A stretch of 64,000 bases of DNA, taken from the NCBI GenBank assembly GCA_002070115.1, contig MWCO01000026.1, forward strand, positions 1 through 64,000, in the 5' to 3' direction. Origin of the DNA: Deltaproteobacteria bacterium ADurb.Bin207 (GTDB lineage Bacteria; Myxococcota_A; Polyangia; Polyangiales; Polyangiaceae). How positions within the stretch are numbered: position 1 is the stretch's first letter; each line of letters begins with the position of its first letter. Of this stretch, positions 1,108 through 26,357 are shown piece by piece. The translations under genes were made by a program, and so were the position numbers. The notes beneath the pieces are model-generated. The model was not told the DNA's origin. It ran no database searches and saw only the letters and a list, made by a program, of their open reading frames with translations.

Positions 1108-3318
1108 TTATGCTTCATATTCCTTTGCTGGCTCCCGTCCTTCCAGAACCCGTAACGCCCCTTGCGCCAAGGCCATCATCTCGCTCTCCCCGGGATACAC
1201 GTCCATCCCACATCCAAGTGCGGCGCATGCCTTATCTATGAGTAAAACGAGAGGTTTCGAACGTGCCATCCCTCCCGTAAGCAACACGCGATCCACCGGT
1301 TGCCCATCGAAGGCCGCGACCAACGAACAAATCGATTTGCCGATTTGATACCCGAGGGCTTCGAATACGGGAACGACTTCCGGATCCTGCTGAACATATC
1401 GTTGTTCGATCGCTTTCAGATCCGACGTGCCCAACAGATCGATGAGCCCTCCTCTTCCCTTGTTTAGCTTCAGCATTTGCTCTTTCGTCACATTTTCACT
1501 GAAACAAAGTCGGATGAGATCGCCTACCGGCAAGGAGCCCGAACGTTGTGGAGTAAACGGTCCTTCCCCGTCGAGCGCATTGTTGACGTCGACCAGACGT
1601 CCTTTGCGGTGTGCCCCAATCGATATCCCTCCGCCCATGTGGCAAACGATCAGATTGAGGTATTCGTAAAACGTTTCGTGATCGCGCGCATAACGATGAG
1701 CGGTTGCGATTTGGTTGAGCGCATGACTGATCGGTTTGCGTCGAAGTGACTTGATACCCGTCACGCGGCATCGTTCTTCCATTTCATCGACGACGACGGG
1801 GTCGACGATAAAGGCGGGTTTGTTTGTCCCTTCGACGAGCGCGTAGGCGATAAGTGCGCCAAGGTTCGAGGCGTGATCGGTCAGAGAGCCTTCGAGCAGA
1901 TCTTTGCGCATGGCGTCGTTGACCGAATAGGTGCCGTGAGGGATTGGTCGCAGAAGGCCACCGCGCGCACTGACCGCTTCGATGGATTCGATGGTTACGT
2001 CATGTTGTTGCAAGGTTCGTTCGACGACTTGTTTTCGCATTTCGAATTGCGTCACGATGCGCTTTCCCTCGAACGGCTCCAACTCACTGGCCGAATGTTG
2101 GAGTTCCTCGGAAAAAATCTCCTCTTCGCCTTGGAAGACCGCGACTTTGGTGGAAGTGGAACCGGGATTGATCGTGAGGATGCGTGGTCGGGCAAAAAAC
2201 GTGTCTCGAGGTGTTCGCACCCATTGTCCGTAACGGTGTAGCCGAAGCAAGTTCGCTTTGACCGCTAGCACGGCGTCTTCTGATTCGACATCCATCGGCA
2301 GGTCGACGCCGCGGAATCGAATTCCATGCACGATGCTGAAGGTTTTTGCTTCGGGATACCGTGTGGCAAACAGGTGAAACAGCAAGTTTCCCGTGTCCAG
2401 GTTCGGCGTGATCAGCACGTTGGTGCCCCGGTAGCGATCCGTTTGATCGACACCCCCATGATAGAATCGCTCGGAACGTCGGCTGAGAGCCACGTTGATC
2501 TTCACCTCCCCCTGAATCGAAATCGAACGATATCGCTCGTTGTTTCGATATTGCTCCTCGATGATTTCGGGCACCAGACGGTTGGCTTTTCGCACGAGTT
2601 CTGGGGAAGGTCCTTCATCCCCTCCATGGTTCGAATAGCTAACCATCACCCCACTGATTTCGGGAAGCTCGGCCTCGGGAATGATATCCCGCGCCACGGT
2701 GCAAGTGGCGACCGCAATCCGTGCAAGCTTGTCCGGCGTCAGGGTTCCGTTGACCCCAACATCGCCTAAAATGAGGATGTTGTGCGGATACAAGCCTTGA
2801 GGATGATCGTCGGGCAAAATGATGACGCCAACTTCACAAAGCACAGGGGCCGCTTGCAGGGTTTTGAGCAAAGGTCGGAAGTATTGCCGTGGTTCATGAC
2901 GAGCGCCTCCCACCACCACGTCACAATGGCCGGAAACGGCAGCCATGATGCCGAAACCCGCGGGAGTCGACACCCAAGCGTAGGCTTCCTCGAGGTTGTT
3001 GACGACGCGTTGCTCGGGCGGGAGTTGCCATGCCGCATGCGCCAACTCTTCTCGCAGGCTCGTGGATTGCTCCAGGTTGCAAAACGCGGATTCCCCGAGG
3101 GCGAACGCAATATGAGCGGAGGCTAGATGTGGCAATTGCCGCTTGATGGTTTCTTCGACGCGCTCGCGTGGGGCGAGAAAAACGGGTTTCGCAACCCTTG
3201 GCAGGTGCAGGGCAGCTTCCAACACCCTCGGATCGTCGGGTTCGATGAACAATACCGTGGGCCGGCACTTCATGACGTTCAAGATTTCACGATCGAGCGA
3301 TGCGCCAATGTCGAACAT
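1108..3318 (-). CDS. Fused phosphate acyl(butyryl)transferase - butyrate kinase
   Basis: One uninterrupted 736-residue frame carries two enzymes that are normally separate. Residues about 15-370 are a PTA/PTB phosphotransacylase: motifs SYSNHGGDEGPSPELVRKA, SIQGEVKINVAL, and NVLITPNLDTGNLLFHL near the domain end. From about residue 379 a complete butyrate kinase follows: phosphate-binding ILTINPGSTSTKVAVF, the RGGLLRPI and HASNLGALIAY segments, HMGGGISIGAH, NNALDGEGPFTPQRSG, and VLLTGGMARS near the end. The family reactions are butyryl-CoA + Pi to butyryl-phosphate, then butyryl-phosphate + ADP to butyrate + ATP, so a fusion could channel the labile acyl-phosphate. Substrate could also be isobutyrate or isovalerate. 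The ATG at 3318 has GAAAGGA about 8 nt upstream; a GTG at 3393 would add 25 residues, but its AAAGGA sits too close. Confidence 0.9.
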   Translation of the reverse strand: MFDIGASLDREILNVMKCRPTVLFIEPDDPRVLEAALHLPRVAKPVFLAPRERVEETIKRQLPHLASAHIAFALGESAFCNLEQSTSLREELAHAAWQLPPEQRVVNNLEEAYAWVSTPAGFGIMAAVSGHCDVVVGGARHEPRQYFRPLLKTLQAAPVLCEVGVIILPDDHPQGLYPHNILILGDVGVNGTLTPDKLARIAVATCTVARDIIPEAELPEISGVMVSYSNHGGDEGPSPELVRKANRLVPEIIEEQYRNNERYRSISIQGEVKINVALSRRSERFYHGGVDQTDRYRGTNVLITPNLDTGNLLFHLFATRYPEAKTFSIVHGIRFRGVDLPMDVESEDAVLAVKANLLRLHRYGQWVRTPRDTFFARPRILTINPGSTSTKVAVFQGEEEIFSEELQHSASELEPFEGKRIVTQFEMRKQVVERTLQQHDVTIESIEAVSARGGLLRPIPHGTYSVNDAMRKDLLEGSLTDHASNLGALIAYALVEGTNKPAFIVDPVVVDEMEERCRVTGIKSLRRKPISHALNQIATAHRYARDHETFYEYLNLIVCHMGGGISIGAHRKGRLVDVNNALDGEGPFTPQRSGSLPVGDLIRLCFSENVTKEQMLKLNKGRGGLIDLLGTSDLKAIEQRYVQQDPEVVPVFEALGYQIGKSICSLVAAFDGQPVDRVLLTGGMARSKPLVLLIDKACAALGCGMDVYPGESEMMALAQGALRVLEGREPAKEYEA

Positions 3319-16800: not shown

Positions 16801-17568
16801 ATGCACACCATTCGACTCTCCACGCTTTCCCTTGCCGCTTGCTGCTTTTCGCTTCCAGCATCCGCTCAATCATCACCGCCTGCCCATGATGATTTTCAAT
16901 CGGGTGGGCTGGCTCCCCCTACCGCTCCCCCTCCCATCCAAACGCAACATCCTGGATTTCAAAGTGAAACCGAGAGAACCCTCGATGAATCCGAAAAAGA
17001 AGATGCAGGAAGAAACCTCGATTGGGTCTACTTCGATGTGGAAGGCGGCTACGAAGTCGTGGGGTTGGAAACATTGAAAAGCAAAGGTCTGACCTACGAT
17101 GATGCGCAAACTTCGGACGGCGGGTTGATGCTGGGAACGGGTCTTGGACTGCGTTTGATCTACATGACCGTGGGTGCTCGCGCCCGCGTCGGAATGCTTT
17201 CGCTCGGTAACCTCGGAACCATCAACGGAGAATTTGGGGTCAATTTGCCCCTCGGCGACCTCGAACCGTCCTTCCACGTCGGTGCCGGTTATGCCTTCTT
17301 GGCTTCTCCCGATGCCGATCGTTGGGGCGGCGACCCCACGATCCATGGTTGGAACACCCGGCTCGGCGCAGGCTTCGATTATTATGTGACACCCGCGTTT
17401 TCCGTAGGCGCGCGGTTATCCGGCGATGTCCTTTTCCTGTCTCGAAAAGCCATGACCCTAGAGCCAACCTCGAATCTCGGTGCAAACGCACGACAAGCCG
17501 CTTCCTCCAAAGGCAACGGGATCGGCGCCGCTTTCTCCGCTTCCCTCGGCTTGGCTCTGCACTTATGA
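16801..17568 (+). CDS. Outer-membrane beta-barrel-like protein, unknown function
   Basis: A 255-residue protein with a signal peptide (MHTIRLSTLSLAACCFSLPASAQS). A Pro-rich spacer with acidic residues follows, then alternating hydrophobic/aromatic strands (WVYFDVEGGYEVVGL, LMLGTGLGLRLIYMTVGARARVGML, FHVGAGYAFLA, RLGAGFDYYVTPAFSVGARLSGDVLFL) that end AAFSASLGLALHL. This is the look of an eight-stranded outer-membrane barrel. The strand pattern resembles secreted barrel proteins common in Myxococcota; no named family is recognised. It lies 20 bases before the PrsW-like gene. Confidence 0.6.
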   Translation: MHTIRLSTLSLAACCFSLPASAQSSPPAHDDFQSGGLAPPTAPPPIQTQHPGFQSETERTLDESEKEDAGRNLDWVYFDVEGGYEVVGLETLKSKGLTYDDAQTSDGGLMLGTGLGLRLIYMTVGARARVGMLSLGNLGTINGEFGVNLPLGDLEPSFHVGAGYAFLASPDADRWGGDPTIHGWNTRLGAGFDYYVTPAFSVGARLSGDVLFLSRKAMTLEPTSNLGANARQAASSKGNGIGAAFSASLGLALHL

Positions 17569-17587
17569 CGTCTCGCGCGAAGTGGAT

Positions 17588-18757
17588 ATGACAGCTTGGA
17601 TCGCCCCTGCATCCGTGTGGCTCATCCTATGCGCTATCCCTTGCGTAGCATGGCTGTACTTCCTCTGGCGCCTGCCCCCTCATCGCACGTCTGCATTCGC
17701 CGCATGGGGCACCGCGGTATTGGGCGCCTTCATGGGCGTCGCTTCCTCCTGGATTCAACGATTCGTCGTCGAACTTACCGGGTTGGAACAAGCCGTCTCC
17801 ACGTTCGGCGCTCCCAGCGGGTTGCTGTATTTTCTCGTCTTCGCGGCTCCCTTGGCCGAAGGCGCCAAAGTCTTGGCAGCGTGGCCGGCCTTGCGCTCCG
17901 CTCATGTCGATGAGCGATACGACGGTTTTCTCTTCGCTTCGGCCTCGTCCTGCGGCTTCGCGGCAAGCCAAAGCGCGGTCGCGCTGCTCAGTGCCCGCAT
18001 CGATATCGACGTCATGTTGCGGGTCATGCTGCTACTCATCGCTCATCCACTGATGTCTTCGTTCTGGGGACACGCCCTTGGAAAAATGCGGCGCTTCCGT
18101 ATTCCTACCGGCAGCTTCATCCTTTCTTGGACACTCGCCACGCTCGTACACGGTCTGTTGTTGCACTTGACTCGATCCACCTCATGGTTCGCTTTGGTAG
18201 CCGCTTTTCCCGTGCTTGGAGGCCTTGCCTTTGCCACCGGGTGGGCAGCGCGAGATCTGCTCGCTCGATTTGCGGTTTCCGCACGCCCCTCCAGGCAAAG
18301 CATGCTTTCCCTGTTGCCGTCTCCCTCGTTGCATGCCGTTCGACACGCCCTTCGAAGAACCGATCGACCCATCATGGTGCATTGGATCGTGGTTGGCGCG
18401 CTGACCACAACCGGAGTCATGTTAACCATGGTGGTCTTGGCGGTGTGGTTCGGTCATCAAGTGGGGTTGGATTTTTCCGCCATCGAACGGGAAGACACCA
18501 CCGCTCGCGCCATCGTTCCCTTGGTGTTGATCACCGTTTCCATCCTCGCCGCATTCCCCGTGTCAGGCTACTTAATCACGAAAGCAAGTGGTTCGGATAA
18601 CGTTCTCGAACCCGCTCTCTCCGCGACCTTGGCCATTGCCGCTGTGCTCATCATGCTCGGCATCGCGGCTCCTGTTGCACTCGTATTTGCTCTCGCCTTC
18701 GCGCCTATCGCCTTCGGACTCGCCTGCTCGGGAGCTTGGTTCGGGCTCGATAAATGA
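17588..18757 (+). CDS. PrsW-like polytopic membrane protein with altered catalytic residues
   Basis: A 389-residue protein of about nine to ten hydrophobic segments. The order of motifs follows PrsW intramembrane metallo/glutamic proteases: AEGAK at residues 90-94 (family EExxK), YDGFLFASASSCGFAASQS at 112-130 (family DGxxYxxxxxxGFxxxEN), HPLMSSFWGHALG near 153-165, and LVHGLLLHL after it. The first Glu of EExxK is Ala and the Glu of the ExN motif is Gln (Q128), while E91, K94 and H153 remain. It may therefore be inactive, or use a different active-site geometry. ATG at 17588 lies 20 bases after the beta-barrel gene; a longer frame starting at 17480 lies inside that gene. It ends three bases before the convergent HEAT-repeat gene. 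Confidence 0.65.
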   Translation: MTAWIAPASVWLILCAIPCVAWLYFLWRLPPHRTSAFAAWGTAVLGAFMGVASSWIQRFVVELTGLEQAVSTFGAPSGLLYFLVFAAPLAEGAKVLAAWPALRSAHVDERYDGFLFASASSCGFAASQSAVALLSARIDIDVMLRVMLLLIAHPLMSSFWGHALGKMRRFRIPTGSFILSWTLATLVHGLLLHLTRSTSWFALVAAFPVLGGLAFATGWAARDLLARFAVSARPSRQSMLSLLPSPSLHAVRHALRRTDRPIMVHWIVVGALTTTGVMLTMVVLAVWFGHQVGLDFSAIEREDTTARAIVPLVLITVSILAAFPVSGYLITKASGSDNVLEPALSATLAIAAVLIMLGIAAPVALVFALAFAPIAFGLACSGAWFGLDK

Positions 18758-18760
18758 CGT

Positions 18761-19693
18761 TCACCGACTCGCTTGCAGCCTTTGCTTCAAACGTAGCCAG
18801 GCACGACGCTCCTGTTCATTGGTCAATGAATCGATGACTTGCTCCACCCGGCTGAGCGTGTCCGGATGCTCTACCATCGACAACGAACGTGCGATTGGCT
18901 CGCGTAATGCCTCCCCACGTCGCGAAAACGCATCGAGAAGAGCCTCTGCACACTTGCCGCGGATTGGCATCTCGTACTCTTTTTTACCTGCTCGACCGGT
19001 TCGCCACGCCCAGGAAGAACCCATGTACCCCAAAGCACGCGCCGCCAGCTTCGCCGTTGGTTCCGATGAGTCCATGAGCCAGGGAACCACAGCGTCGACC
19101 GCTCTGAGATCACGTACGTAACGCAGCCCCCATAACGCCGCGTCTCTTCTCTGTCCTTTGCGCTGCAATGCATTGATTAACAACGTTTTTTCACTCTCGC
19201 CCCCCAACCTTCCCAAACCGATTGCCGCCCCTCGTAACGCAATCCAATCCGAATTCTCGTGCGTAAATATCGCGCGAAATACCGGACTCGCTTCCGGCAT
19301 TTCCCGTTCTCCGAGGGCGATGATGATCCCTTCCCGTACGGCATCCCACTCTCGTTGGGTGGCCTCTCCCCGCTCCGGTGCTCGAAAGGATACCGCTTCC
19401 AGCAAGGCCCATCCCGCCCCAGGTCCCAACGATTGAAGCTCAGCGAGAACGCTCGGCTGCTGAGATCGAAACTGTCGATACACCTGCGGACGATGACCTT
19501 GCAGTGTCTCCAAGCGCTGAAATGATACTGGATCCAGCGTTTTGTAACGGGCTACCTGCTGTTGTATCGCCTCTCGATCGTTGCGAGACAAACGAGTCGA
19601 CGGCATGAACAAGCCATCGGCCCAGGCCGCTCGCGATAGCATCAGCAAGGTCAGACCGACTCCAAGGATTGGGAATATGGCTTGCGCTCTCAT
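18761..19693 (-). CDS. Secreted HEAT-repeat protein, partner gene of the arginine deiminase
   Basis: A 310-residue protein with a signal peptide (MRAQAIFPILGVGLTLLMLSRAAWA) followed by mature alpha-helical repeats. HEAT-like helix pairs are visible in the middle and C-terminal part, for example ASPVFRAIFTHENSDWIALRGAAIGLGRLG, LINALQRKGQRRDAALWGLRYVRDL and VVPWLMDSSEPTAKLAARALGYMG. Such repeats are protein-binding scaffolds. The start ATG at 19693 overlaps the stop of the arginine deiminase by 4 nt (ATGA), which ties its expression to that gene. A possible role is binding or presenting substrate to the deiminase, but this is inference; nothing in the repeat itself identifies the ligand. Confidence 0.7.
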   Translation of the reverse strand: MRAQAIFPILGVGLTLLMLSRAAWADGLFMPSTRLSRNDREAIQQQVARYKTLDPVSFQRLETLQGHRPQVYRQFRSQQPSVLAELQSLGPGAGWALLEAVSFRAPERGEATQREWDAVREGIIIALGEREMPEASPVFRAIFTHENSDWIALRGAAIGLGRLGGESEKTLLINALQRKGQRRDAALWGLRYVRDLRAVDAVVPWLMDSSEPTAKLAARALGYMGSSWAWRTGRAGKKEYEMPIRGKCAEALLDAFSRRGEALREPIARSLSMVEHPDTLSRVEQVIDSLTNEQERRAWLRLKQRLQASR

Positions 19694-21567
19694 CGTCCGC
19701 TCTCCCACCACGGATGTTGATGGGGCACCACCCGAAGCACATTCGTGGCGCAATGCACCTCGCCGTTATTTCGATGATATGTGTTCCAATCATCCACGTA
19801 GTGGGTCACAAGCCCCGTCGCGCTCAATCGGGTGTCCAGATCCTGTTTGAATACATCCACTCCCCCCACATTCGGACCAAAAGGATCGGCGATGAGCACA
19901 TGACCATCGAAGTGCAATAAATTCACGGTTCCCGGCTGATAGGCCACCGATCCTTCCGGAATCGATTGCTCCAGAAATGGCATATCGATGATCTCGTCGT
20001 CTTGTAGATCGAGTTCGTCTTTGAGCTGCAGCAAAATGCCATCCAGGATCGCTTGATCCTCCTGGTTGGTCGCCATCAAGTTCGCATTGCCGAGCACTTG
20101 ATCCACCGTCCGGGACGCCGGCCCTCCCCACCACCACTTGCCTTCATGCATTTTGGCCGATCCATGTCCCGCTTTTTGCAAGGACATCAACATATCCACC
20201 GCCATCTTTGGGCGCGCGAACAGCATTCGCCAGCCGCGCTCGCTATTCGCAGGAACGAAAGACAGAATCTCGTCCACGTGACCCACGGCAAGCCAGGAAG
20301 TATCCACCCGAATCAACGGCTGCACCCGCTGTGCTTGCACAAACTCCTCCGCCACGGGATCGGGATGACGCTCCGCCGTGGAACCTAGAATGAATCTTCC
20401 CTGGGGATACGACACCCCATGCGCTCGATGGGGGGGAACCGTATCCCAATTCCCTGTGGAATCCAGAGAACGCGTCGCTTGGTCATACGGCTGATCGTGA
20501 ACGTGAATCGCGCCGAAATCCTTGCCAAGAAACTCGACAAACACCACGTCCGCTGACGTGCGCTTCACCCGCGGCGTGCGAAACGCCACCAACATCGTAT
20601 GCATCCCTTCCTTCGACGGCATCGATGCATATCCCATCTCGAAATGATCTTGCGTCCATTGATCGAAATCATGGTTCGCATATCCCGGCGCATCGTAGTT
20701 CAGCACATCGACCGCCACGGCGGCTGCCGTCGCGGCCGCTTTCAAACCCTTGATGAATTCCCCATCAAAACCACCTACCCAAATCTTCTCTGTTTTCATC
20801 AGGTTATGCATGAATACCAGGGGTGCGACGCGCATGCGAACCTGGTCTCTGCTCAACTCTTCGTGCCCGTTGGTGACGATATGTTCGATGTCCACGAATC
20901 CAGACCACGCCCCCGCCGCTGTCGAAGTCGGGAAAAATTTCGCCTCAATGGCAAACTCAACTCCGTGAGCAAGATCGTCCGCCGTCACAACCACATGCGT
21001 GGGATCCTCGAGAACAAACTCATCTGCTTGAACACGAAAGAGACGAACCCAAGGGGCCGCTTCCGGATCGACCGATATGATCCCCTGCGCATTGGCAGGT
21101 ACGTCCTCAAATCCCACAACGTGGATGCGCGCCAGGTCCTTCGCATCCTCAGGACCGTTGACCACCTCATCAAGGTGATCGCCCACCCCGTCTCCATCGT
21201 CATCATCCACATTCGCCAACAAAATCGCGCCGATTGACTCGTTCCATTGATCCTCGAACGTCTGCTCCTCAAACGAGTCGGGCTCAATCACCCCATTGCG
21301 GTTGGCATCGACCACGAGATCGCCAAGAACCCTACGAGTCACGGGTTCATCGCTGTCGCCTTGCCCATCCTGCCCATCGATCCCTTGAACGTCTTGGGTC
21401 CCCTCATCCTTGTCCTCAGCGTCATGGCCTCCAGCATCGCTTACAGGGGCCGAAGGCTTCATCAAGTCCATGGTCTCTTCGGAACTTGAACAGCCCTGGG
21501 CCAGTATCAACCCCAATCCCAAGGCTATCGACCCATGGAACCGCAATGGGCTTTTCGGTTCGAACAT
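19690..21567 (-). CDS. Lipoprotein peptidyl-arginine deiminase (PAD)
   Basis: A 625-residue enzyme that should convert peptidyl-arginine to peptidyl-citrulline. The C-terminal 340 residues match vertebrate PAD: WTQDHFEMGY with the catalytic Asp (D307), VEFLGKDFGA, WLAVGHVDEILSFVPA with the catalytic His and Asp (H430, D432), ADPFGPN, and GEVHCATNVLR with the catalytic Cys (C606). A Trp-Trp pair ends the protein as in PAD4. The arginine that follows DFGYVT in PAD4 is not seen here. The N-terminus is a lipoprotein signal (GLGLILAQGC). It is followed by an acidic linker and EF-hand-like loops DANRNGVIEPDS and DDDDGDGVGDHLDE, so calcium dependence is likely. ATG at 21567 gives the best signal; upstream in-frame starts exist at 21585 and 21606. 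Confidence 0.93.
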   Translation of the reverse strand: MFEPKSPLRFHGSIALGLGLILAQGCSSSEETMDLMKPSAPVSDAGGHDAEDKDEGTQDVQGIDGQDGQGDSDEPVTRRVLGDLVVDANRNGVIEPDSFEEQTFEDQWNESIGAILLANVDDDDGDGVGDHLDEVVNGPEDAKDLARIHVVGFEDVPANAQGIISVDPEAAPWVRLFRVQADEFVLEDPTHVVVTADDLAHGVEFAIEAKFFPTSTAAGAWSGFVDIEHIVTNGHEELSRDQVRMRVAPLVFMHNLMKTEKIWVGGFDGEFIKGLKAAATAAAVAVDVLNYDAPGYANHDFDQWTQDHFEMGYASMPSKEGMHTMLVAFRTPRVKRTSADVVFVEFLGKDFGAIHVHDQPYDQATRSLDSTGNWDTVPPHRAHGVSYPQGRFILGSTAERHPDPVAEEFVQAQRVQPLIRVDTSWLAVGHVDEILSFVPANSERGWRMLFARPKMAVDMLMSLQKAGHGSAKMHEGKWWWGGPASRTVDQVLGNANLMATNQEDQAILDGILLQLKDELDLQDDEIIDMPFLEQSIPEGSVAYQPGTVNLLHFDGHVLIADPFGPNVGGVDVFKQDLDTRLSATGLVTHYVDDWNTYHRNNGEVHCATNVLRVVPHQHPWWESGR

Positions 21568-21722
21568 AGACAGCACACGAAGCATCGTAAGACGTTCTAG
21601 CACCAAGCTGACGTCATGTCCTGATGCGATCTTCGGGGGAACAATGCCTTTTGTCGATGGACACGGTCACTCGAGCGGTGGTGTTTTCTCTGAACACGCA
21701 TTCCGTGCTAGGCAACGGACCC

Positions 21723-23525
21723 ATGGACGCGCGAGGTCGATACGACGCCCGAATTCGAACGATCGAACAGCAGACGAATACGCTGCAGCGACGATATGAC
21801 CTATTGGCCTGGTCCCGGCTTTCCGTGTTCATCCTCGCCATGGCTTCCGCGATCGGCACGCTTTGGAAAGATCTCGGTTCTTCCGGTTGGTCCGTGACGC
21901 TCGGTGCTTCCGTGCTCTTTGCCGTACTCGTTTCGTATCACGCTCGCATCGCCCAGCAACGCGATCGGTTACAGGCGGCGCGACGTCACAACGAACGAGG
22001 AATCGATCGTCTCGATGGGAAATGGGTGGATTTCGAAGATGATGGGGCTCGTTATCTCCGCGATGAGCATGCGTATGCTTTGGACCTTGATATTTTCGGC
22101 AAGGCTTCTTTGTTTCAACTCTTGAACGATACGGCCACACGGATGGGCGCGCGACGGCTTGCCACGTGGCTGGCGGGTCCGGCGCAAGACGACACACTAC
22201 GGATTCGACAACAGGCAGTGCAGGAATTGGCGACGTTGCACTCGTGGCGTGAAAGCCTTGCCGTGGCGGGCGCGCATGCCGACGATACCTTGCCGGATCC
22301 CGAACCGTTGTTGGTTTGGATGGAGCGTTCCCCCACGTTCAAAACTCCAACGATTCCGCGTATTTGTGCGTGGATTGGGACGTGTTTGGTCTTGGGGGCG
22401 GCGGTGTTGTGCTCCGTGCTTTCTCTTTCCGCATGGGTGTTTCTCCTGCCGTACTTGGTGAACATCCTAGTTTCGATAGCGTTGTCACGAAGACTGCAGC
22501 CCATCATCGACGCTGTATCCGAACGCGCTAGCGATCTTGAACGTCACGGCGAGATGTTCGAGTTGATGGAACGACAAGCCTTTCGTTCGGAAGGTCTTGT
22601 TGCCCTTCAGCAGAAACTCAAAGCCTCCGGCCGCTTGGCTTCCGCGGAGACACGACAGCTTGCGCGGATCGTGTCGTTCTTGGACGCGAGGAGAAATGGC
22701 GCTTTTCGAGCGCTGATTGGATCGGCGCTGCTCTGGGATCTTCATTGCGTTTTCGCGTTGGAACGTTGGCAGAGGAGGGTGGGACCTTCCGCTCGGGGAT
22801 GGATGCGTGTGCTTGCGGATCTGGAAGCGCTGTCTTGCTTTGCGACATTCAGCTTCGAGCATCCCGATTTCGCGTTTCCGTCGATGGATCCGGGGGAACT
22901 GCATTTCGAGGCGCAGGGGCTAGGACACCCGCTGATTAGCGATGACGAGCGGGTCGTCAACGATGTATCGCTGCCTGGGCCCGGCTCCCTGTTGCTGGTT
23001 ACGGGTTCCAATATGTCCGGAAAAAGCACGTTGTTGCGCTCGATTGGCGTAGCCGCGGTGCTTGGCTTGGCTGGCGCGCCGGTTTGTGCTCGCTGTCTGC
23101 GAATGTCCGCATGTACCGTCATGTCAAGCATGCGCGTGAGTGATTCGCTCAAAGACGGTATCTCGCGGTTTTACGCGGAGTTGATGAAGATCAAACGGGT
23201 GACCGAAACGGCAGAGAAAACTCCGGTGCTGTTTTTGCTCGACGAAATCTTACATGGAACGAATTCCCGCGAAAGACACGTCGGCGCCCGATCCATTCTC
23301 CGAATGCTCATCGACAACGGTGCCATGGGCGCGGTTTCGACCCATGATTTGGCACTCGCATCGCTTGCCGATGAACTCCCCGACCGCGTGCGGCTCGTGC
23401 ATCTGCAAGAACAAGTGGTGGATGATAAAATGATTTTTGACTATCTCTTGCGAGATGGAGTCGTGAAAAGCGGGAACGCGCTACGCTGGATGCGGTTCGT
23501 CGGACTGAGAGTGGATGAACCCTGA
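21723..23525 (+). CDS. Membrane-anchored MutS-family ATPase
   Basis: A 600-residue protein with two N-terminal hydrophobic helices (around LSVFILAMASAIGTLW and VTLGASVLFAVLVSY) and two more near residue 220-270 (CAWIGTCLVLGAAVLCSVL, WVFLLPYLVNILVSIALS). A MutS-type lever and ATPase domain follow: Walker A TGSNMSGKSTLLRSIGV near 427, the SSMRVSDSLKDGISRFYAE stretch, Walker B LFLLDEILHGTNSRERH, and VSTHDLALASL. It lacks the mismatch-recognition and connector domains of true MutS. Such membrane MutS-like proteins are a known but functionally undefined group. ATG at 21723 is taken as start; in-frame Met codons at 21624 and 21657 would give a longer N-terminus. Divergent from the arginine deiminase. 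Confidence 0.75.
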   Translation: MDARGRYDARIRTIEQQTNTLQRRYDLLAWSRLSVFILAMASAIGTLWKDLGSSGWSVTLGASVLFAVLVSYHARIAQQRDRLQAARRHNERGIDRLDGKWVDFEDDGARYLRDEHAYALDLDIFGKASLFQLLNDTATRMGARRLATWLAGPAQDDTLRIRQQAVQELATLHSWRESLAVAGAHADDTLPDPEPLLVWMERSPTFKTPTIPRICAWIGTCLVLGAAVLCSVLSLSAWVFLLPYLVNILVSIALSRRLQPIIDAVSERASDLERHGEMFELMERQAFRSEGLVALQQKLKASGRLASAETRQLARIVSFLDARRNGAFRALIGSALLWDLHCVFALERWQRRVGPSARGWMRVLADLEALSCFATFSFEHPDFAFPSMDPGELHFEAQGLGHPLISDDERVVNDVSLPGPGSLLLVTGSNMSGKSTLLRSIGVAAVLGLAGAPVCARCLRMSACTVMSSMRVSDSLKDGISRFYAELMKIKRVTETAEKTPVLFLLDEILHGTNSRERHVGARSILRMLIDNGAMGAVSTHDLALASLADELPDRVRLVHLQEQVVDDKMIFDYLLRDGVVKSGNALRWMRFVGLRVDEP

Positions 23526-24459: not shown

Positions 24460-26271
24460 TCAACGGATGGTGGGTGAAGGCTCCTCATCCACCGTTGCAC
24501 GCTTTTTGATATGAAACTCGACCCTACGATTACGAGCCATTCCCTCCGGTGTGTCATTGCTTGCAATAGGTCGGTCTTTTCCATATCCCACGCTCGTCAA
24601 CCGTGCGGGCGCCACTTTGCCTCGCTGCACCAACCACTTCTGCACCGACGCGGCTCGCCACGTGGATAGTTGCTGGTTGAAGTAAGCGTTGTCTCGACTA
24701 TCCGTATGCCCCTCGATCGATACGAGCAATATCTCTGGATGGTCCTGTAACAATTCTGCGATCTGCCCGAGCAACGCATCGGACTCGGGAAGGATGCGCG
24801 CGCTGCGCGTCGCAAAGTGAATCGTTTCCGTAATCCGAATCTCGTCCGCCACGATCGCCACCGGAGGGCATCCGTTCTTATCCTTGTCTTCATGCGCTTG
24901 CCCAGGCGTGTCCGGACACGCATCCAGCTCATCCACGATACCATCCCCATCCCGATCCGCGGGACAACCATGTCGACCAGGATCCTCGCTAGCCACCCCG
25001 GGCACGTCTACGCACGCGTCCAAAGCATCGATAATGCCATCCCCATCCGAATCGCGAGGGCAGCCATGCTTCGACGGCTCTTCGCTTGGTTCGCCAACCG
25101 TATCCGGACACGCATCCAGCTCATCCACGATACCATCCCCATCCCGATCCGGTGGACATCCGTGTTTCCAAGGGTCATCGCTGGAAACTCCCGCAGTTTC
25201 GATACACGCATCCCGATCATCGGCAATCCCATCGCCATCTCGATCCGAGGGGATAATATCCGGAAATGGACACCCATGTTTTCTGGGATCCGAATTGGCC
25301 AATCCAGGGGTTCGGGGACATGCGTCTCGGCCATCCTCGATCCCATCCCCATCCCAATCCGAAGGCCCCACGGTGATGGAAGCCACCGTGGCCACGCTCA
25401 GTTCGACGCGGAATCTTGCGGTCCCAGGCGTTGGTGTCAAACCCGTACCGAGCAGCCCGCCTAGCAACCACCGTCCGACACGCACTCGCGTGGTGGCCGA
25501 CCCCTCCACGGGCACTGACCTCGACCATCCCGTGTCGACCCCGTCGCCCGGCAGCACGAAATGACCCGCTATTTCCGGACCCAGCCACACCAAATCACGC
25601 ACGAGACCAAAGGAGGCTCCAGCACCAAAGGTGATGGCGGGACCGATCGTCAAATTCCCTACGTCGGCTTTTTTTCGATGCAGCCACCCAAGCGAGGCCG
25701 TGTAATCCACCGCATCCCGTCGGCCACTGACAATTCCGCGAATATGAACGCGACTGCTGCCATCGCTGGTCCCCTTATCTTCATTTCCTGTTGGAATCCA
25801 AATACTTAGCTCTCCTCCGAGAAGATCCGTTTCTGTCAGCGGTCCAATCGAAGCCCTGGTTCCCACCCGCGTGTCGACGAGGCTAGCGCCGGTTTCTTTC
25901 GACATCGCCGCGGTAGACGCGAGTCGAAGGGGTTGGGCGATATCGAAAGCGAGCCGATTCCACAACGCGTACGACGCCCCAAGGAGTGTGAATATTTCCG
26001 CTCCCTCCCACAGACCTTTTTCTTCTCGCTCATCGAAGACGCTTCGCGGCCGATAGGCGTAGTCCCAGGACCAGCCAACCCAGGGTTCACCATCTCCCCG
26101 AACCATGGCATCTGGAACGAGACGAAATCGGTCGCCGGGGCTCGTGGGCTCGAAAATCCGTGTCGAAGCACCCGGTTGGGCGGACACGGGTGCAGACACC
26201 AACCCCACGGCAACCAACCATGCAATAGCCCGCCGTTTGGAAAACGCCGAGGACCGAATCAAGGGATTCAT
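24460..26271 (-). CDS. OmpA-family outer-membrane protein with thrombospondin type 3 repeats
   Basis: A 603-residue protein. A signal peptide (AIAWLVAVGLVSAPVSAQP) is followed by about 280 residues of beta-barrel-like sequence. Five Ca-binding TSP3-type repeats then follow (DRDGDGIVDELDACP type). The C-terminal OmpA domain anchors to peptidoglycan: IHFATRSARILPES, ILLVSIEGHTDSRDNAYFNQQLSTWRA and VGYGKDRPIASNDTPEGMARNRRVEFHI. The layout is barrel, stalk, wall anchor. ATG at 26271 is taken; two in-frame Met codons lie up to 36 bases upstream. Divergent from the lipoprotein phosphohydrolase gene, with 86 bases between. Its repeats are nearly identical at DNA level. Confidence 0.85.
   Translation of the reverse strand: MNPLIRSSAFSKRRAIAWLVAVGLVSAPVSAQPGASTRIFEPTSPGDRFRLVPDAMVRGDGEPWVGWSWDYAYRPRSVFDEREEKGLWEGAEIFTLLGASYALWNRLAFDIAQPLRLASTAAMSKETGASLVDTRVGTRASIGPLTETDLLGGELSIWIPTGNEDKGTSDGSSRVHIRGIVSGRRDAVDYTASLGWLHRKKADVGNLTIGPAITFGAGASFGLVRDLVWLGPEIAGHFVLPGDGVDTGWSRSVPVEGSATTRVRVGRWLLGGLLGTGLTPTPGTARFRVELSVATVASITVGPSDWDGDGIEDGRDACPRTPGLANSDPRKHGCPFPDIIPSDRDGDGIADDRDACIETAGVSSDDPWKHGCPPDRDGDGIVDELDACPDTVGEPSEEPSKHGCPRDSDGDGIIDALDACVDVPGVASEDPGRHGCPADRDGDGIVDELDACPDTPGQAHEDKDKNGCPPVAIVADEIRITETIHFATRSARILPESDALLGQIAELLQDHPEILLVSIEGHTDSRDNAYFNQQLSTWRAASVQKWLVQRGKVAPARLTSVGYGKDRPIASNDTPEGMARNRRVEFHIKKRATVDEEPSPTIR
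24864..25359. repeat. Thrombospondin type 3 repeat array in the OmpA-family gene
   Basis: Five repeats of about 34-37 codons, each with the Asp-rich core D.DGDGI.D..DAC and ending HGCP or NGCP. Stretches around 24925-24960 and 25108-25150 are identical for more than 20 bases. This favours slippage or gene conversion, and so length variation. Confidence 0.85.
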
Positions 26272-26357
26272 GACAATGGTGAAACCTACCATGACCTTAC
26301 GCCGCATCGGTAAGAACGCCTTGACGATCCCTGCTCCTGCGGCAACGGTTGAAGGAC

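Follow-up and report, generated by a model that had tools for sequence, protein, structure and literature searches.

Protein citrullination has, to our knowledge, been studied almost only in vertebrates, in connection with arthritis and neutrophil traps, and in Porphyromonas. Bacterial PADs are related to those presumed to have been the source of the animal enzymes. The PPAD of Porphyromonas gingivalis is an exported bacterial citrullinating enzyme, and in this respect it resembles the enzyme described here. PPAD belongs to another family, phyletically distinct from PAD (PMC8826395). Bacterial PADs are already known, including two-domain forms in some proteobacteria; Cummings et al. 2021 listed 69 proteobacterial species, and a cyanobacterial PAD is active and calcium dependent (PMC8826395).

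The stretch of DNA analysed here, called the window, comprises 64,000 nucleotides of Deltaproteobacteria bacterium ADurb.Bin207, a soil-type bacterium of the Polyangiaceae (contig MWCO01000026.1, positions 1 to 64,000). It carries a PAD gene that overlaps a gene for a secreted HEAT-repeat protein. We give about an even chance to the reading that the PAD is an extracytoplasmic, calcium-dependent citrullinating enzyme and that the HEAT protein binds it as a dedicated partner and controls its folding or its activity.

The PAD lipoprotein and its gene

The gene for a PAD-family protein-arginine deiminase lipoprotein of 625 amino acids lies at 19690..21567 on the reverse strand, with its ATG at 21567 and its stop codon at 19692-19690. 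The protein matched Pfam PAD (PF03068) with E=2.1e-92 and 310.6 bits against a cut-off of 25, over positions 2-395 of 395, and PAD_M (PF08527) with E=5e-8. By sequence, the nearest solved structures are human PAD3 and PAD4, and D307, H430, D432 and C606 align with their catalytic residues, which in PAD4 are D350, H471, D473 and C645. The catalytic D, H, D and C are invariant in the 96 aligned relatives (73/73 HEAT-linked and 23/23 other loci). The AF2 model has a mean pLDDT of 86 and is confident from residue 80 onward, with a disordered N-terminus; it superposes on human PAD4 (5n0m) with a Z of 50.2 and an rmsd of 1.6 Å over 511 residues at 30% identity. With a 311-bit domain score and Z=50 to PAD4, the match is not due to chance. 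The original prediction had assigned the protein to the PAD family with a full catalytic signature and proposed structure prediction with alignment to PAD4 as a check; both the residues and the model agree with it. In the orphan PAD of Pyxidicoccus (L119), N replaces the invariant E three residues ahead of the catalytic Cys (E603 in the window protein).

The label "vertebrate-type" did not hold. The protein is not of the three-domain kind: Pfam gave no PAD_N match, residues 1-80 being signal and disordered linker, and the Ca2-site ligands are replaced. PAD_porph, the Porphyromonas-type PPAD family, was not among the Pfam matches of the window at E up to 0.01. The enzyme consists of a signal (1-25), the lipid-anchor Cys26, a disordered acidic linker (27-~80), PAD_M (84-~235) and PAD_C (238-622).

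Because PAD chemistry is established and its residues are retained, deimination of proteins is the likely reaction; it would use C606 as nucleophile, with H430, D307 and D432. The modified proteins may be those of the cell itself, of prey or a host, or of the matrix. The wider superfamily also includes small-molecule deiminases, so the enzyme could act on free arginine or small guanidines instead of proteins, with an unrelated, structural role for the HEAT protein. We consider this quite unlikely. Sequence and fold are those of PAD proper, PAD_M is present, the substrate-site residues W304 and V428 are conserved, and the cyanobacterial relative citrullinates proteins (PMC8826395).

The two Asp loops that had been described as calcium-binding-like are real (87-DANRNGVIE and 119-NVDDDD...D130...D141..D144), but they are normal PAD_M sites and no extra feature, and additional calcium modules were thus ruled out. 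These segments are encoded at 21136..21309 on the reverse strand and comprise the loop D87-x-N89-R90-x-G92 and N119, D121-D123, D126, D130, D133, D141 and D144; the PAD_M ligands kept are this loop (D87, N89, R90, G92), N119, D121, D123, D130, D133, D141 and D144. In the alignment, the Ca1 ligands are kept by position as Q306, E310 and D375. At the Ca2 site, E351 of PAD4 is replaced by H308 and D369 by R330, and HEAT-linked relatives mostly have F/Y at the first position and R at the second. The calcium-switch Asp (PAD2 D389) corresponds to D350 and is D in 67/73 HEAT-linked relatives. The numbering of the PAD4 and PAD2 ligands follows common usage and PMC8826395. Binding of Ca2+ to the PAD_M domain and the Ca1 site would switch on arginine deimination. 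Loss of the Ca2 ligands was also considered as a sign that HEAT had replaced them; this found no support, as HEAT-less PADs of Streptomyces and Planctomycetes have lost them too.

The lipoprotein signal sequence and anchor, MFEPKSPLRFHGSIALGLGLILAQG followed by C26, are encoded at 21490..21567 on the reverse strand. The lipobox LAQGC satisfies the PROSITE PS51257-type rule (n-region, h-region, Cys at 15-35), in agreement with the lipoprotein originally predicted. The strict rule was passed by 54/73 HEAT-linked PADs and by 13/21 PADs of the other myxobacterial lineage, and among those that failed, many have a truncated start, a wrongly called one or a box that only just misses the rule. Relatives from Planctomycetes and Streptomyces have no lipobox. 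Two other Polyangiaceae PADs, L023 (match 1501-3231, reverse strand) and L068 (1-1895), carry one or two N-terminal somatomedin B domains (PF01033, 1.7e-17); somatomedin B is an extracellular module, rich in Cys and most familiar from animals.

The HEAT-repeat partner has 310 amino acids and is encoded at 18761..19693 on the reverse strand (ATG at 19693-19691, stop at 18763-18761). Its Sec signal peptide (1-~25) precedes an alpha-solenoid (~32-310), and a Sec-type signal is found in nearly all loci; the secretion that had been proposed is supported. Its start lies within the PAD stop codon, as had been noted, the exact overlap being the four nucleotides ATGA at 19690..19693 (reverse strand), and translation of the two genes is probably coupled through it. 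PAD and HEAT would form an operon and an extracytoplasmic protein-citrullination unit. The PAD would leave the cytoplasm through Sec, receive its lipid anchor at Cys26 and sit outside on its flexible acidic linker, and the HEAT protein, translated from the same mRNA, would be exported to the same compartment. A promoter-like site was looked for and none was found.

Three neighbouring genes may be described. At 17480-18757 (forward strand), convergent with the HEAT gene, lies a gene whose 425-aa product is a multi-pass membrane protein that matched no Pfam family; by eye only, its pattern of an E..K and a later H motif is reminiscent of PrsW-type proteases. A MutS-family ATPase gene at 21624-23525 (forward strand), divergent from the PAD gene, matched MutS_V and MutS_III only and none of the N-terminal MutS domains, and has a predicted hydrophobic stretch. 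The gene at 24460-26307 (reverse strand) encodes an outer-membrane protein of the OmpA family that contains a series of calcium-binding repeats of the thrombospondin type-3 kind. An anti-phage defence function was dropped, since PADLOC gave no match to the PAD and only a weak generic HEAT match.

Pairing of PAD and HEAT genes across genomes

Bacterial homologs had been described as few. This is not the case in Myxococcota, where a PAD is present in 94/379 genomes and nearly all of these PADs are lipoproteins, and at least 550 bacterial PAD loci of this type were found in a genome collection. Strong HEAT matches adjoin PAD matches in 59 relatives. Among the named PAD loci, the HEAT gene is directly adjacent in 73/80, and 43 of these 73 have a 4-nt overlap identical to that of the window. 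The seven without HEAT are two contig ends, two loci of Planctomycetes, one of Streptomyces, and one extra paralogue each in Pyxidicoccus and Labilithrix; the Pyxidicoccus genome also has one complete pair and the Labilithrix genome two. No PAD–HEAT fusion was present among the HEAT matches.

Retention of the catalytic residues and co-occurrence in related genomes had been set as the points on which the prediction would stand or fall, and both were found. A HEAT profile, with orthologues counted at 75 bits or more and generic HEAT proteins scoring under 52 bits, detected 66 orthologues in 56 of the 379 Myxococcota genomes. PAD is adjacent on the same strand in 64/66, HEAT being downstream in 62 and upstream in 2. 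The two non-adjacent orthologues (G043 and G016) are partial, covering about 106 and 125 profile positions, and the PAD matches of these genomes lie at a contig end, with their first bases at 71 and 9, respectively. None of the 379 genomes has a HEAT orthologue without a PAD, and 38 have a PAD without HEAT. Fisher's test gave p=6e-42 for this co-occurrence, which is only a rough guide because the genomes are related. Eight multi-copy genomes hold two to four pairs each, always with one HEAT per PAD (e.g. 4+4). On one contig (JALHOS010000008.1), two pairs (L103 and L104) lie about 11 kb apart, as if locally duplicated. In another genome, the HEAT partner (G371:C35:162798-163691) is interrupted by a single in-frame TAA, and the PAD gene next to it is open; the pair may be decaying, or the assembly may be in error.

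An ancient neighbour might be retained simply through slow genome rearrangement. Many genes in bacterial operons overlap by four bases, which would be compatible with this, and for the same reason the overlap alone says little. Passive linkage was nevertheless rejected as extremely improbable, since other neighbours are not conserved and paralogues keep their partners. No other conserved flanking gene family was found across the loci: the largest flank cluster covers 19 loci at varied positions and strands and has a WD40-repeat member. Identity between pairs is low (mean 42% for PAD and 32% for HEAT), and in 3 named loci and 2 survey genomes the two genes have changed order but are still adjacent.

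Myxococcota PADs form two lineages, and a HEAT partner occurs in only one of them. In a tree of 99 PADs, made by a quick method and with cyanobacterial and fungal rows absent, the HEAT-linked PADs group in a single clade with an SH-aLRT support of 99%, and the HEAT label changes 4 times compared with 23.8 in shuffles. A separate clade, with full support, holds the 21 myxobacterial PADs that have no HEAT partner. This second lineage (L129-L148) consists of shorter lipoprotein PADs of about 520-590 aa; they keep the E and D of the Ca2 site, have no D141 PAD_M ligand and often lack the D87 loop. Streptomyces lasiicapitis (L128, G406) has two PADs and no HEAT orthologue. One of the two lies within the myxobacterial HEAT clade without a partner, hinting at transfer between phyla. 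A plasmid search for cyanobacterial PADs returned only Streptomyces/Embleya matches. The distance matrices of PAD and HEAT are correlated (r=0.72, and 0.58 for distant pairs against a best of 0.20 in 1000 permutations), as any two genes inherited together, with no exchange of partners, would be expected to show.

The HEAT partner and its possible role

The window HEAT protein matched HEAT_2 (PF13646) with E=4e-13 and 49.8 bits against a cut-off of 27.7, and 37/46 partners have such a match. AF2 models it with confidence as an alpha-solenoid (pLDDT 92.9), and the closest structures are artificial alphaRep binders (Z about 16). This likeness of a predicted model says only that the fold is of a protein-binding kind. 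The family is separated from generic HEAT proteins by a gap in profile-search scores (over 74 bits, at 75 or more, against under 52), and its defining residues are R76 (45/46 aligned partners; codon at 19466..19468, reverse strand), G-x-C-R-R at 191-195, SxWAW (WAW at 228-230, with W228 and W230), R245 and L252. The window protein has R-Y-V-R-D at 191-195 instead.

Mature PADs are acidic (median pI 4.6, below 6 in 67/67) and the HEAT partners are basic (median pI 9.7, above 8 in 62/67). Other secreted-like ORFs of the same loci, for which gene and signal calls were heuristic, have a median pI of 5.8 against 9.7 for HEAT (p=4e-15). A direct PAD–HEAT complex is likely because the two share an operon and a compartment, are paired one to one in a near-obligate manner and have opposite charges; each HEAT protein would bind its own PAD as a basic solenoid on an acidic enzyme. 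Forty PAD positions conserved in the HEAT-linked enzymes were considered as a docking patch and rejected; they are uninformative because most also occur in HEAT-less relatives.

Since no PAD-less genome was found to have the HEAT gene, while PADs do occur without it, it is most likely the HEAT protein that serves the PAD rather than the other way round. The HEAT protein may be a dedicated partner that controls PAD folding or activity, like the cognate foldases or inhibitors of some other exported bacterial enzymes, and this role fits best. The PADs of the sister lineage, Streptomyces and Planctomycetes and the two orphan PADs of the HEAT clade have no HEAT, so PADs in general do not require a partner in order to fold.

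Adaptor and substrate roles are live rivals, and the scaffold originally suggested is one among several possible roles. As an adaptor or scaffold, HEAT would bind targets on the cell's own surface, on prey or on neighbouring cells and present them to the tethered PAD, a role that the solenoid fold with its likeness to alphaRep binders, the strict pairing and the one-to-one copy number would all allow. A general adaptor could be shared among several PAD copies, but every copy has retained a HEAT partner of its own, and R76, CRR 193-195, WAW 228-230 and R245 are family-wide, whereas a face that binds diverse targets might be expected to diversify. We therefore regard this role as possible, although rather unlikely.

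The basic charge and an Arg content of 9.9%, compared with 4.5% in the PADs, would also suit a main substrate or pseudo-substrate whose charge is tuned by citrullination, and the near-invariant R76 lies in a loop of the predicted structure. A high Arg content was rejected as a feature peculiar to the partner, since within the phylum generic HEAT regions are just as rich in Arg (median 11%). With a median pI of 7.6 (n=18) and similar Arg in these regions, the basic charge and not the Arg content marks the partner. A structural role would explain the conserved arginines equally well, and we consider the substrate role unlikely. Extended to the phylum, the proposal is a Myxococcota extracellular citrullination system that pairs every lipid-tethered PAD with a dedicated HEAT solenoid, which binds and controls it or offers the R76 loop as substrate; we hold this tentatively, at somewhat less than even chances.

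Comparison with known systems

In the open literature, with subscription journals mostly outside it, no earlier report of a PAD–HEAT pair or of a myxobacterial (lipoprotein) PAD was found, and the main text of PMC8826395 mentions neither signal peptides nor HEAT proteins nor myxobacteria. Our data point to an undescribed bacterial protein-modification system with a built-in partner. The tight, phylum-wide gene pair and its cultured carriers, Polyangium fumosum and Myxococcus dinghuensis, offer a direct handle on the role of bacterial PADs. A natural PAD-binding protein could show how a protein controls PAD activity and, if the proposal is true, HEAT would be a protein partner that is encoded genetically and is specific to an enzyme of the PAD family.

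The gene of a Lif/LipH foldase adjoins that of its enzyme. These lipase-specific foldases of Pseudomonas and Burkholderia are periplasmic proteins dedicated to one exported enzyme (PMC3352829, PMC13381987). The comparison concerns the way of working only and claims no sequence relation; the HEAT partner is a soluble solenoid that would act in a similar manner. HEAT_2 and alphaRep solenoids have a similar fold, and the partner is set apart from them by its score gap and by R76, CRR, SxWAW and R245.

The window PAD shares with vertebrate PAD1-PAD4 (PADI) the predicted fold, a PAD_C domain with the D/H/D/C residues, a PAD_M domain with residues kept at its calcium-ligand positions, the Ca1 residues by position and the calcium-switch Asp. 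It differs from them in having no PAD_N, in the loss of the Ca2 ligands, in being an exported lipoprotein and in having a dedicated HEAT partner gene. The two-domain bacterial and fungal PADs of Cummings et al. 2021 (PMC8826395) likewise have PAD_M and PAD_C without PAD_N, their Ca2 site is not conserved, and they share with most members of the present family a His pair that follows the PAD_M/PAD_C linker. The HEAT-linked PADs differ in mostly retaining the calcium-switch Asp, for which glycine is given in actinobacteria and fungi (PMC8826395). As judged from its sequence, the architecture of the window PAD places it with the two-domain bacterial type and not with the three-domain cyanobacterial/animal clade (PMC8826395).
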